Positions 9,607 through 21,430 of a DNA stretch of 21,573 bases are shown here, piece by piece; position 1 is the first letter of the stretch; the number at the start of each line of letters is the position of its first letter. Source of the DNA: a virus. Made by a program: the position numbers and the translations under genes. The notes below the pieces were generated by a model. The model was not told the origin of the DNA. It saw nothing but the letters and a program-made list of their open reading frames with translations, and did no database searches. The stretch spans positions 1 through 21,573 of IMG/VR virus record IMGVR_UViG_3300034105_000690, one strand, 5' to 3'.

Positions 9607-9764
9607 TACTTTAATATTTTGTTTATTAATAAATCTGGGTTATTTAGTGCCGCCTTTCTCTTGGCGCATCCACAGTCCTTGTTAGCTGCCTTGGCAACCT
9701 TATCCACAACCTTCTTAACTCCAGTTGCAGTTGTTATCTGTTCTATTCTGTCTCCTAGTAGCAT
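9606..9764 (-). CDS. Small protein with CGCAKRK motif (52 aa)
   Basis: I place the start at the ATG 9764-9762, four bases after the TAA of the upstream gene; a GTG at 9824 in the same frame would add 20 residues that overlap the upstream gene. The protein begins MLLGDRIEQITTATGVKK and contains the motif KDCGCAKRKAALN near residue 30-42, with two closely spaced cysteines, which recurs in small proteins of Bacteroidota phages (memory, unverified). The Cys pair could bind metal, but two cysteines alone do not show it. Function unknown. Confidence 0.65.
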   Translation of the reverse strand: MLLGDRIEQITTATGVKKVVDKVAKAANKDCGCAKRKAALNNPDLLINKILK

Positions 9765-9768
9765 GACT

Positions 9769-10041
9769 TTATTTTTTAGTTCCTCTTGCTCTCTTGTCTC
9801 CAGGCATCGCGCACTTTGATCCACGGTTCGATGACGCCTTCTTCATTACTATGCCACCCTTAGTGTGACTAGCATCTAGTCCGTCTCCGTTACCATAGGT
9901 CCCACGCTTCCTGTTCACAGCGTTAAGTTCGACACGCTTTCTTACCTGATCTGGAGACTTGTTGTACTCCTTCTGGTAGTCGTTGTGCCTCTTCTTAGCC
10001 TCTGGATTAGCTGCGTAGTATTTGGCGGTTCTTCCTGGCAT
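9769..10041 (-). CDS. Small basic phage protein (90 aa)
   Basis: MPGRTAKYYAANPEAKKRH opens a strongly basic protein. Other notable parts are YQKEYNKSPDQVRKRVELN, NRKRGTYGNGDGLDASH and a C-terminal RGSKCAMPGDKRARGTKK. The combination KYYAxNPEAxxxxxxYQKxY...RxxLNxxNRxxGTYGNGDGxDxSH is one I recall from many marine phage ORFs, always without known function; it may be a virion or DNA-associated protein. The start ATG shares one base with the previous stop (TAATG at 10041). Confidence 0.72.
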   Translation of the reverse strand: MPGRTAKYYAANPEAKKRHNDYQKEYNKSPDQVRKRVELNAVNRKRGTYGNGDGLDASHTKGGIVMKKASSNRGSKCAMPGDKRARGTKK

Positions 10042-14726: not shown

Positions 14727-14939
14727 TTAAAATTCCATACCTTCTGAGCCCAATAAAACCGAGCCAAATGTTAAATATTTGTTAAAGATTTGGATTGTAT
14801 TGTAAAGTCGCCGTATGTTTGCAGTGTTCAAATGAACGAGTCGACATGACTATAACTGCGGGTAAGTCTACTCTGGAATAAGCGATATAGATTTCGTGAA
14901 GTCCGAAGACCATGAGCTCCTCGAATAGAGACAGACATG

Positions 14940-14994
14940 AAACGTATATGGATGTGTTATCCATACTGATGAGCCACAGAATGGCGAAACGTTT
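14940..14994 (+). ncRNA. Hammerhead ribozyme 1 (type III)
   Basis: All core bases are present. Stem III: AAACGT (14940-14945) pairs with ACGTTT (14989-14994). Cleavage triplet GTA with the scissile bond after A14946. Stem I: TATGGAT (14947-14953), loop GTGTT, ATCCATA (14959-14965). Then CTGATGA (14966-14972), stem II GCC/GGC (14973-14975 and 14983-14985) with a 7-nt loop, and GAA (14986-14988). Stem III is the open one, so this is type III: after cleavage the folded core stays at the 5' end of the downstream mRNA, 14 nt before the ATG at 15008, and could protect it. It would remove about 210 nt of leader if transcription starts near 14,733. Confidence 0.9.
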
Positions 14995-15007
14995 AATACT
15001 ATTTATC

Positions 15008-15277
15008 ATGAACAAATTAAAAAGCAGAAATTATAGATGGGTAACTCTTTATGGAAAGCCATGTATTTGGAATTTAAAAACAGACGAATGGGTAATTCAA
15101 ATAAATGATGGTAGGATATATTTTACAGGTGAATTCAGTTCTTATAAGACATCGGATGAAATATATACGGATTTATATGTAGCGAAAAGTGTTTGCACAC
15201 ATTTTTTAAATTCATATTTAGAACGTGAGAATGATGATTTAATAAAGCATATACAAAGGTTAACTGATGAGATCTAA
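15008..15277 (+). CDS. Early hypothetical protein (89 aa)
   Basis: I place the start at ATG 15008-15010, preceded by the A/T-rich ACTATTTATC, like the leaders of the next genes. The frame is open back to 14,912 but that part is the hammerhead 1 sequence. The product begins MNKLKSRNYRWVTLYGKP and looks like a small beta-strand protein (WVIQINDGRIYFTG) with a C-terminal helix (DDLIKHIQRLTDEI). The gene is strongly AT-rich compared with its surroundings. Its TAA stop (15275-15277) lies inside loop II of hammerhead 2, so a terminating ribosome would cover the ribozyme. Function unknown. Confidence 0.72.
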   Translation: MNKLKSRNYRWVTLYGKPCIWNLKTDEWVIQINDGRIYFTGEFSSYKTSDEIYTDLYVAKSVCTHFLNSYLERENDDLIKHIQRLTDEI

Positions 15278-15307
15278 ATGATCGAAACGTCGTGAGACGT
15301 CTTAACC
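15258..15307 (+). ncRNA. Hammerhead ribozyme 2 (type I)
   Basis: Stem I GGTTAA (15258-15263) pairs with TTAACC (15302-15307). CTGATGA at 15264-15270; stem II GATC/GATC (15271-15274 and 15280-15283) with a 5-nt loop; GAA at 15284-15286; stem III ACGTC (15287-15291), GNRA tetraloop GTGA, GACGT (15296-15300). The triplet is GTC with cleavage after C15301. Stem I is open (type I), so the core stays on the 3' end of the upstream mRNA and the downstream RNA starts with a clean 5'-OH TTAACC leader, 22 nt before the ATG at 15324. Confidence 0.94.
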
Positions 15308-15323
15308 ATAAAACATATTTAAC

Positions 15324-15404
15324 ATGAGAGACATCCTATTTTGGGTATTGGTAGCGGTGCTATCAATCACAGTACATTTATTAACCCCTACATACTACAG
15401 ATAA
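15324..15404 (+). CDS. Micropeptide with one TM helix (26 aa)
   Basis: MRDILFWVLVAVLSITVHLL is almost wholly hydrophobic and ends PTYYR. The start lies 22 nt after the hammerhead 2 cleavage site behind the leader end ATATTTAAC. Its TAA overlaps the next ATG (TAATG), supporting translation. A single-helix membrane peptide; function unknown. Confidence 0.6.
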   Translation: MRDILFWVLVAVLSITVHLLTPTYYR

Positions 15405-15481
15405 TGGGACAGAACTTAAAAGACATCGGACTTGCCCTAGTACTATGGGCAGTATTTATAATAGTAGTATCAATAATCTAG
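15404..15481 (+). CDS. Micropeptide with one TM helix (25 aa)
   Basis: MGQNLKDIGLALVLWAVFII continues VVSII and ends at a TAG whose last G is the first base of hammerhead 3. It is coupled to the previous micropeptide by TAATG. Both peptides lie on the fragment that hammerheads 2 and 3 would excise. Small single-helix peptides of phages can act on host membrane proteins, but nothing specific shows that here. Confidence 0.6.
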   Translation: MGQNLKDIGLALVLWAVFIIVVSII

Positions 15482-15535
15482 GTTAACTGACGAGTCCTGA
15501 TTGGACGAAACACCCCACTACGGGGTGTCTTAACC
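15481..15535 (+). ncRNA. Hammerhead ribozyme 3 (type I)
   Basis: Stem I GGTTAA (15481-15486) and TTAACC (15530-15535) are identical to hammerhead 2. Core CTGACGA (15487-15493; the variable seventh core position is C), stem II GTCC/GGAC (15494-15497 and 15503-15506) with loop TGATT, GAA (15507-15509), stem III ACACCCC (15510-15516), loop ACTAC, GGGGTGT (15522-15528). Triplet GTC, cleavage after C15529. The downstream RNA again has a 22-nt leader before ATG 15552. Stems II and III differ in sequence from hammerhead 2 but keep pairing, which is covariation in favour of function. Confidence 0.94.
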
Positions 15536-15551
15536 ATTAAATATATTTACG

Positions 15552-15737
15552 ATGAAGAAATCAATCTATCAGCACATCGCTGACACGTACAAGGACGAGG
15601 TTCCAACATTGGAACAAGTGACCGCAGTAATAACAAGAGAAATACCAAACATCTACTCACCTAACCACACGTTTGAGGAGTTATCTTTGGACATTTACAA
15701 TAACTATAAAAACTTTATCGCATCATGGAAACAGTAA
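15552..15737 (+). CDS. Early hypothetical protein (61 aa)
   Basis: Starts MKKSIYQHIADTYKDEVPTL, 22 nt after the hammerhead 3 cleavage site. It looks helical, with ITREIPNIYSPNHTFEELS in the middle. The stop TAA overlaps the next gene by 13 nt. GC-richer codon use than its two AT-rich neighbours. No known domain. Confidence 0.7.
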   Translation: MKKSIYQHIADTYKDEVPTLEQVTAVITREIPNIYSPNHTFEELSLDIYNNYKNFIASWKQ

Positions 15738-17074: not shown

Positions 17075-17296
17075 ATGAAAGAGGAGTATATCAGGATGCG
17101 CAATAGTGGGCAGTATAACATAGAGTGGTTCCATAAGTACTACAGAAGCAAGGGTGGCAACGATGTGCCCTTGCAGACGTTCCACATGGTGTTTCAGACG
17201 GCCAACCTAGATCAGGTTCTAGAGAGAATAGATAAGGAGTATGAATTGACATCATTGTATGATGTAAATAATAAACTAATAAAGACATGGCAATAA
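17075..17296 (+). CDS. Early hypothetical protein (73 aa)
   Basis: I choose ATG 17075 (MKEEYIRMRNSGQYNIEWFH), 8 bp after the previous stop and preceded by CTACAA; a start at 17045 would add ten residues that overlap the previous gene. The product is helical with many Tyr/Arg residues (KYYRSKGGNDVPLQTFHMVF). It overlaps the ferredoxin start by 10 nt. Confidence 0.66.
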   Translation: MKEEYIRMRNSGQYNIEWFHKYYRSKGGNDVPLQTFHMVFQTANLDQVLERIDKEYELTSLYDVNNKLIKTWQ

Positions 17297-17589
17297 AGAT
17301 AACAGACGACTGCATCAACTGCGGACTGTGTGAGCCAGTGTGTCCGAACAACGCGATATACGAGCCTGACACGGATTGGAGATGGAGCGACGGCACGATC
17401 CTAAAGGATGATACACCACAGGCACCACGTTCAAGCGACGTGTTCTACATCGTGGAGGAGAAGTGCACAGAGTGTGTAGGCTTCTACGGTGCGCCACAGT
17501 GCGCGGAGGTATGTCCTTCGAACTGTTGTGTGCCTAGCACGTACGAGACAGATTTACTAACTAAAAAACATAGACTACATGGAAATTAA
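17287..17589 (+). CDS. 2[4Fe-4S] ferredoxin
   Basis: A 100-aa protein with two cluster motifs: C9-x2-C12-x2-C15-x3-C19-P and C60-x2-C63-x8-C72-x3-C76-P. The order TDDCINCGLCEPVCPNNAIY, a spacer with SSDVFYIVEEKC, then TECVGFYGAPQCAEVCP matches small bacterial ferredoxins of about 100-117 aa, the type common in Bacteroidota. Such proteins carry electrons at low potential in the cytoplasm. All eight ligand cysteines are present, so it should be functional. It is an unusual cargo for an early phage operon, where it overlaps both neighbours by about 10 nt; redirecting host metabolism or supplying a radical enzyme are possible roles (inference). Confidence 0.93.
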   Translation: MAIKITDDCINCGLCEPVCPNNAIYEPDTDWRWSDGTILKDDTPQAPRSSDVFYIVEEKCTECVGFYGAPQCAEVCPSNCCVPSTYETDLLTKKHRLHGN

Positions 17590-20582: not shown

Positions 20583-20593
20583 CAAATTTGTTG

Positions 20594-20601
20594 TATATTT
20601 G
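20594..20601 (+). promoter_or_regulatory. Promoter candidate for the 0.8-kb RNA (-7 box)
   Basis: TATATTTG within TGTTGTATATTTGTTGC, almost identical to the groEL promoter on the other strand. A TTTG at 20576-20579 lies 14 bp upstream, at the end of the exonuclease gene. Transcription would begin about 20,607. Confidence 0.68.
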
Positions 20602-20629
20602 TTGCGGATTAGGGTGTCCCTGGTCGGTT

Positions 20630-20699
20630 TGTTGTGTAGTTTAATGGTAGAATAGGCCTTTGCTTAGGCTAGACGAGGGTTCGAATCCCTCTGCAACAT
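20630..20699 (+). tRNA. tRNA-like element with 6-nt (or 8-nt) anticodon loop
   Basis: Acceptor TGTTGTG/TGCAACA (20630-20636 and 20692-20698, one G-T pair at the base), D arm GTTT/GAAT, T arm GAGGG-TTCGAAT-CCCTC (20675-20691), discriminator T20699. The anticodon arm is GGCCT/AGGCT (20655-20659 and 20666-20670) around only six bases, TTGCTT; with a 4-bp stem the loop is eight bases. A normal 7-nt loop cannot be drawn. GCT or TGC could be read as anticodon, so no amino acid is assigned. Confidence 0.72.
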
Positions 20700-20771
20700 C
20701 AACGTTTCGGGTAATGCTGGATGTCAAAGGACCAACGGAAAGACGTTTGACTATTAGGAAAGACTAATATT

Positions 20772-20843
20772 TGTTGTGTAGCTCAATTGGCAGAGCCTGG
20801 TCCGAAAGTTCCAGAGATGCAGGATCATACCCCGCCACAACAT
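20772..20843 (+). tRNA. Degenerate tRNA-like element
   Basis: Acceptor TGTTGTG/CACAACA is a perfect 7-bp stem (20772-20778 and 20836-20842) and has the same 5' strand as the element at 20630. The D arm is textbook (GCTC-AATTGGCA-GAGC). The T arm is damaged: GCAGG/CCCGC has an A-C mismatch, and the loop is ATCATAC in place of TTCGAAT. The anticodon arm pairs only as CTGG/CCAG (20797-20800 and 20811-20814), leaving a 10-nt loop. A GAA is present but without U33. Length between arms is normal, so this is sequence decay or a changed function rather than deletion. Confidence 0.6.
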
Positions 20844-20920
20844 CGAGGTCAAGTAGCGCTTGAATGAACTTAGTGGTAATAACGGAAGAACCTAAGAGAG
20901 ATTGACAAAAACTCCGTACA

Positions 20921-21016
20921 GATTGAGTGTACCAAATGGCAAAAGGTTATTCCAGCCCTGGATAGAGGCACAAGAAAATAAGTCCTACATTACAGGTTCG
21001 AATCCTGTCTCAATCA
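20921..21016 (+). tRNA. tRNA-like element with extended middle
   Basis: Acceptor GATTGAG/CTCAATC (20921-20927 and 21009-21015), D arm ACC/GGT with GG in the loop, T arm ACAGG-TTCGAAT-CCTGT (20992-21008), discriminator A21016. Between D and T arms are about 43 nt instead of 22. They start with TCCA-GCCC-TGGA (20951-20962), a 4-bp stem with a 4-nt loop, then a bulged stem TAGAGG/TCCTA. It might be read as a class II tRNA with a long variable arm, but the anticodon hairpin is too tight to present three bases in the normal way. Confidence 0.6.
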
Positions 21017-21430
21017 CAGCAGTTACTTGACGCAAATAGTACAGTAACAGACATTGGGTAGTTTGCATACCACGAATGTTAAGTCCTTTCTGCGCAAAGA
21101 AGGTGTTGAGTACTTAAGAGAAGGAAGTTCCAACCTCAACAAATCGGTTAAACATTGAATGCCTTTGTAAATTAACCCCGTATCGGAAGATTAAATAATA
21201 GTAGTGAAAATCTACAACGGGGTCAATGTTTACATAAAGATACTATCAGTAATGATAGAACGTGAGTTGCCTTGAGAAAGCAATGAGCCATAGCTAAGAG
21301 AGTAAAAACTAAATCCGACTTCTCTACTCACGTAATGAGTTCTCAGCTAGACCCTACTTTTATAGAGGGTGCTAATAAACTGAAAAGCCGACAACAGTAC
21401 AAAAAGGTAGGCAAAATTAAATTTAATAAA

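Follow-up and report, generated by a model that had tools for sequence, protein, structure and literature searches.

The closest described counterparts of the locus studied here are the hammerhead clusters of prophages. According to the available text of Perreault et al. 2011 (PMC3088659), these clusters flank single genes or short blocks, and the proposal made for them is that they divide long phage transcripts into mRNAs the length of an operon or a gene; three of the arrays cleave in vitro and one in E. coli. In the halovirus HF1/HF2 variant HHphage, one hammerhead lies 13 nt before a phage gene start; as far as that text goes (PMC3088659), it differs from our locus in being single, a core variant and from an archaeal virus. 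RiboJ is an engineered type III hammerhead of sTRSV that serves as an insulator (PMC6206723). The theta (HDV-like) ribozymes, a different class, are self-cleaving RNAs of gut phage genomes, which the accessible part of their description links to suppressor tRNAs rather than, as here, to gene junctions (PMC10879173).

We examined a 21,573-nt (21.6-kb) viral stretch from IMG/VR (record IMGVR_UViG_3300034105_000690), referred to in its entirety as the window. Like the prophage clusters, it has several hammerheads on the coding strand that flank individual phage genes. It departs from those clusters, as the available text presents them (PMC3088659), in a shared GGUUAA stem I, a stop codon in the ribozyme, a 22-nt spacing and a hairpin before the type III cut, and our material comes mostly from uncultivated phages rather than prophages. 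The first-pass annotation saw in the array a dedicated RNA-processing system. As a novelty this did not survive, and the window system is not of a novel kind, because the mRNA-processing idea was proposed for prophage hammerhead clusters in 2011, as the available text already makes clear (PMC3088659). What we consider new, set against the searchable papers, in which we did not find it described, is the regular form of the cassette and how widely uncultivated phages carry it; full-text searches, with subscription journals mostly outside their reach, returned no paper on this cassette.

Three hammerheads at the head of an operon

Tail-fibre-like and GroEL genes are among those of the left half of the window, which is coded on the − strand. 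A + strand operon of small ORFs occupies the right half and ends with a Sak-type annealing protein and a DUF3799/exonuclease-like protein, and this order of genes makes an early operon plausible. The nearest named relative is MW202828.1 (57.6% identity for the GroEL protein and 54.3% for the Sak protein), and in Flavobacterium Elemovirus phages a type III motif likewise heads a comparable operon. From the relatives and from promoter-like letters, we infer that the host belongs to the Bacteroidota. The Bacteroidota promoter −7 consensus is TAnnTTTG; the candidate −7 element of the operon, TATGTTTG, is predicted at 14814–14821 (+ strand) with TTTG at 14789–14792, and Elemovirus has TATATTTG at the matching place. 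Farther along the operon, a small ORF at 17287–17589 has a 4Fe-4S ferredoxin-like domain (Pfam Fer4 matches). About 750 bases at 20590–21330 are without a large ORF and contain tRNA-like sequences with odd anticodon loops (ARAGORN anticodons "gc" at 20630 and "gaaa" at 20772), with a third tRNA-like stretch, its ends paired, at about 20920–21018.

Three hammerheads, all on the + strand, stand at the first junctions of this operon and at no later ones. A type III motif lies at 14940–14994 with its predicted cut after A14946, and two type I motifs lie at 15258–15307 and 15481–15535 with predicted cuts after C15301 and C15529; the cleavage triplets read GTA (14944–14946), GTC (15299–15301) and GTC (15527–15529). 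An Rfam cmscan matched Hammerhead_3 (RF00008) at 14939–14995 (43.6 bits, E 1.1e-6; gathering score 48.5), and Hammerhead_1 (RF00163) at 15481–15535 (27.3 bits, E 0.006) and at 15258–15307 (25.5 bits, E 0.024; gathering score 34 for both). All three scores fall below the gathering score, which is a database cut-off and no structural criterion. Four more type III loci score 42.0–45.1 bits, near the value of the window, and the type I copies of a related locus (L092) score 27.3 and 31.9 bits. The type III motif has the RF00008 structure, with CUGAUGA, GAAA and GUA, an open stem III and, according to our detector, stems of 8, 4 and 6 pairs. Both type I copies have the RF00163 structure, with the core, a cut after GUC, three stems and an open stem I. 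The minimum-energy fold of each of the three pieces is the hammerhead fold, with a z-score of −3.1 for 15481–15535.

Sequence reading and Rfam matches thus put the motifs and triplets where the first-pass annotation had placed them; the conserved core bases that it listed as complete are all there, as are the three stems, and the search with Rfam models agreed on types and coordinates, though never above the gathering score. The detector accepts a sequence that has the core, three stems and a UH dinucleotide at the cleavage site, with G disallowed at position 17; it found 364 motifs in 294 loci. It found none in shuffled DNA (one round over 2.57 Mb of loci and five rounds over 0.97 Mb), the shuffle unit being two-base blocks, which keeps composition but not full dinucleotide counts. 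Across the whole window, neither the detector nor Rfam reported a hammerhead beyond the three. The first-pass annotation had counted a lack of model hits above threshold, together with a lack of cleavage, as grounds for refutation, and the score half of this pair did turn out as it described. Because core bases and three stems are present, the pieces fold as hammerheads and shuffling yields no hits, we do not read the subthreshold scores as a refutation; judged by sequence, the three motifs are close to certain to be genuine hammerhead ribozymes.

The untranslated leader of the operon (14822–14946, + strand; alignments of four and nine leaders) is predicted to be released by type III cleavage. 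The type III motif, which is shared with Elemovirus phages, L234 and L235, is followed by ORF1 (15008–15277, + strand, 89 aa by translation), with 61 nt between the cut site (14946) and the start. ORF1 has no family match (hmmscan of 15011–15277, minus the first Met), and its stop TAA (15275–15277) lies within loop II of the first type I ribozyme. The cut of that ribozyme is predicted to free a 22-nt leader (15302–15323, + strand) ahead of a hydrophobic micro-ORF of 26 aa (15324–15404, + strand), which overlaps the next ORF through TAATG. This next ORF is a second hydrophobic micro-ORF, of 25 aa (15404–15481, + strand), and the G of its TAG stop (15481) is the first stem I base of the second type I ribozyme. 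From there, a further 22-nt leader (15530–15551, + strand) is predicted to be freed before the first ORF of the remaining operon (15552–15737, + strand, 61 aa), after which the next listed ORFs overlap or abut. The distance from cut to next start is exactly 22 nt at both type I sites (15301 to 15324 and 15529 to 15552). The first of these leaders is predicted to be unstructured, with a fold of 0 kcal/mol for 15302–15340, and the fold of 15530–15570 is weak. The two type I copies differ in stems II and III but have an identical stem I (GGTTAA/TTAACC), a likeness that the first-pass annotation had not pointed out. They separate the first genes, as the array had been annotated to do, whereas the type III motif precedes the first gene and separates none.

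Segments of the leader at 14822–14946, such as GACTATAAA..GGGT..TACTCTGG and AAGCGG..CCGTGAAG..CGAA, are common to L003, L234, L235, L092, L082, L074 and L015. The leaders of the window and of six loci with similar leaders match no Rfam family, and this region upstream of the type III motif may be a structured RNA of a kind not yet described. Like RiboJ, the type III motif of the window sits in a 5′ leader, and its predicted action is to remove upstream RNA and to leave the start codon preceded by hairpins; its position and the hairpin expected at the 5′ end fit the RiboJ layout, the promoter being a candidate only. Unlike RiboJ, it is natural and combined with type I motifs at the following junctions. 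Its loop I (GGATGTGTTATCC) resembles what we take to be the sTRSV loop.

Spread and form of the ribozyme-filled junction

The GGUUAA/UUAACC form of the type I motif was found in at least 120 viral stretches of IMG/VR (pattern GGTTAACTGAYGAG...CGAAAC...GTCTTAACC). The same pattern occurred in two stretches among 84,980 bacterial and archaeal genomes, both from metagenome-assembled genomes. A generic type I pattern yielded, among the matches listed, at least 111 unique three-stem motifs in at least 77 loci, with many stem I sequences. Because such searches select for the motif, they speak to its abundance and form, not to its frequency. Named phages held no close match to a 50-nt consensus of the GGUUAA/UUAACC form; four Agrobacterium phage records (two entries for OLIVR1, one each for OLIVR2 and OLIVR3) match it at 82%, and OLIVR1 has one type I motif, with a stem I different from that of the window. 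Elemovirus, which was isolated on Flavobacterium sp. BAL314 and is represented by 68 similar records, has both hammerhead types. As in the window, the matching operon of vB_FspP_elemoA_7-9A (MT497017.1) is headed by a type III motif, and this phage also has a type I/RAGATH-1-like motif in which the initial G of stem I belongs to the TAG stop of an upstream micro-ORF; unlike the window, its type I stem I is GGCAAA/TTTGTC and its other junctions are without a motif. Elemovirus and OLIVR1 therefore show that isolated phages with such motifs exist.

Two annotations in these isolates touch on the ribozymes. In MT497017.1, a hypothetical protein on the opposite strand, elemo79Aphanotate_43 (9757–9864), covers a hammerhead-like motif at 9768–9848 and is probably not a gene. 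In OLIVR1, 33780–34148 is annotated as a 3′-phosphatase 5′-polynucleotide kinase, which, going by this annotation, could heal ribozyme-cut ends.

An unselected sample was provided by 80 relatives fetched by their Sak protein alone, without regard to ribozymes. They contained 26 type I and 24 type III hammerheads, a total of 50 that are not fully independent because some loci are closely related to each other. Without exception, these hammerheads lie upstream of Sak, the recombination gene, and on the operon strand; the detector found none in 546 kb downstream of Sak and none on the other strand. Among the 44 loci having at least 6 kb upstream of Sak, 25 have one hammerhead or more; the detector found none in the other 19, nor in the scanned part of MW202828.1, the closest named relative, and the device is therefore dispensable. 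Single examples were known previously, and among uncultivated phages the hammerhead-punctuated operon head now turns out to be a widespread and standard layout; the initial reading of hammerheads at the head of a phage operon was borne out, and the arrangement is common in relatives. Type III precedes type I in the window and in 14 of the 19 locus strands holding both types. We dropped the rule that type III always comes first and type I follows, as type I precedes type III in L336, L338, L369 and L377.

The early region of MW202828.1 contains, and it alone, 14 copies of a palindrome, GTGTCGTTAACGACAC (43747–55156), nine between genes and five within coding sequence, with no exact match in IMG/VR. 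It looks like a repeated DNA site. The idea that it replaces the ribozyme in this phage was dropped, 5 of the 14 copies being inside coding sequence.

Among 159 unique GGTTAA-form ribozymes, all four Watson–Crick pair types occur at stem II positions 2–4 and stem III positions 2–5, and broken pairs are almost absent at these positions. Since the detector accepts no stem II with fewer than three pairs and no stem III with fewer than four, the paired fraction leans towards structure; the variety of pair types is independent of that requirement. The early remark that stems II and III differ yet pair is confirmed in that the two window type I copies differ and the wider family keeps its pairing. 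That GGTTAA is invariant in this set follows from the search pattern and is no evidence in itself. Not imposed by the search are an A before stem I (159/159) and an A after it (156/159), and among 90 other type I motifs that have a six-pair stem I, 72 have an A on both sides of it. These flanking A's suggest a structural contact at the end of stem I, its partner perhaps being the conserved loop II. Identity of stem I within contigs is 0.78 (21 loci). The proposal that stem I is a phage-wide tag was reduced to a lead, since the copies of one contig also resemble each other in stems II and III and in the leader more than copies shuffled among loci do. In L127, L146 and L178, a second copy of the first strand of stem I follows the type I cut (TTAGAC aatcaa GTCTAA), so that the freed 5′ end could form a hairpin; a postcleavage 5′ hairpin of this kind is absent in the window.

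We then defined a cassette set of 126 GGTTAA-type motifs preceded by 60 or more codons of open frame; the longest open run was taken as the upstream ORF, which is thus a candidate gene. Stop codon and ribozyme overlap in 93 of the 126 (74%), and in 29 more the stop lies no more than 15 nt before the ribozyme. Of the overlapping stops, 47 are the stem I TAA, 24 are the core UGA and 14 are a TAG that shares its G with the start of stem I; the other eight lie at +11. The upstream frame that would meet no stop in GGTTAACTGA is under-used (20/126; chi-square p 4e-5, with related loci treated as independent). The distance from cut to start has a median of 22 nt (quartiles 20–24) in the GGTTAA form and a median of 26 nt in the other type I motifs.

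The two forms are predicted to divide the transcript differently: at type I sites the ribozyme body stays on the upstream RNA, and at type III sites it departs with the downstream RNA. Type III junctions commonly have a separate hairpin between stop codon and cut. Over the last 40 nt before the cut, the median folding energy is −13.9 kcal/mol for type I and −13.8 kcal/mol for type III, compared with −4.7 kcal/mol in controls (random windows, and also the 40 nt upstream of type I motifs), and half of the type III cases have a z-score below −2. Because type III junctions carry this separate hairpin, both forms would give the upstream RNA an equally strong 3′ hairpin. This is our best argument for regarding a protected upstream 3′ end as part of the design.

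Proposed transcript processing and alternative readings

We think it likely, with some room for doubt, that self-cleavage at the hammerheads would divide the transcript, while it is being made, into individual messages that are all protected at the 3′ end. A processing role is favored because of position and structure (folds, strand bias, stop and start spacing, 3′ hairpins). The same features give good support to the proposal of intergenic mRNA processing in the first-pass annotation, with cleavage in the cell standing as a prediction. Each ribozyme would fold during transcription and cut the transcript once. The type III motif would remove the untranslated leader, and the first message (14947–15301, ∼355 nt) would begin with the hairpins that remain of the motif. 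Type I would cut between its own body and the next leader, and the body, including or touching the upstream stop, would form the structured 3′ end of the upstream message. Hammerhead cleavage leaves 2′,3′-cyclic phosphate and 5′-OH ends; from this chemistry, the downstream messages (15302–15529, ∼228 nt, and a long remainder from 15530 onward) would begin with 5′-OH-UUAACC and a 22-nt open leader. With separate messages, the first small genes would presumably be translated and decay independently. Points against this reading are the subthreshold Rfam scores, the relatives in which the detector found no hammerhead, the restriction of the motifs to the first junctions of the window operon, and the possibility that a leader freed by cleavage makes the RNA less stable.

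The stop codons allow a different reading, in which the ribozyme acts as a switch instead of cutting constitutively. A ribosome that terminates at the upstream stop, which falls in stem I, the core or loop II, would cover the ribozyme, and cleavage would report upstream translation. The 74% overlap among the 126 cassettes and the depletion of upstream genes in the frame without a stop in GGTTAACTGA (20/126, p 4e-5) point this way, but tight packing together with stops inherent in the conserved letters would also produce the overlap, the frame test counts related loci as independent, and at type III junctions the stops lie ∼31–65 nt before the cut. We regard such a switch as unlikely. Equally doubtful in our estimation is a cassette that acts as a translation-timed processing device, with the common 5′-OH-UUAACC end marking every downstream message of a phage for preferential handling; here the ribosome would time the folding of the ribozyme, and the upstream message would be cut only after, or only if not, translated.

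Other readings concern the nature of the motifs themselves. The main product of type III cleavage might be the released leader, a small structured RNA with a function of its own, with mRNA trimming secondary. Leader segments common to the window, Elemovirus, L234, L235, L092 and others speak for this, but it accounts for the first ribozyme only, in many cases a gene and a short hairpin, not such a leader, come before the type III site, and the leader structure is without covariation support, which makes it improbable as the main role. Hammerheads serve mobile elements in eukaryotic repeats and satellites, and copies within one contig tend towards the same stem I, as might be expected if the motifs were copies of a mobile or satellite-like RNA element (retrozymes, viroid-like RNAs) resident in phages. 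Against this, the hammerheads of retrozymes and satellites bound a repeated, circularising unit, whereas those of the window bound different genes with no common body between copies; each motif stands alone at a gene junction and invariably on the operon strand, and stems II and III have changed in sequence without loss of pairing. We give this origin very little credence, and the same holds for inactive relics or chance folds, which the scores under the Rfam cut-offs would suit but which intact cores, covariation in 159 relatives, the absence of shuffle hits and strict position and strand all contradict.

Processing of the nascent transcript into separate messages thus remains our preferred reading. 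The role of bacterial and phage hammerheads has been open since their discovery, with contexts that are suggestive but variable. A large and regular set, in which the ribozyme fills the junction and carries the stop and is accompanied by a 3′ hairpin and a fixed leader, makes the mRNA-processing idea directly testable, and the cassette would supply natural, ready-made insulators for Bacteroidota gene expression.
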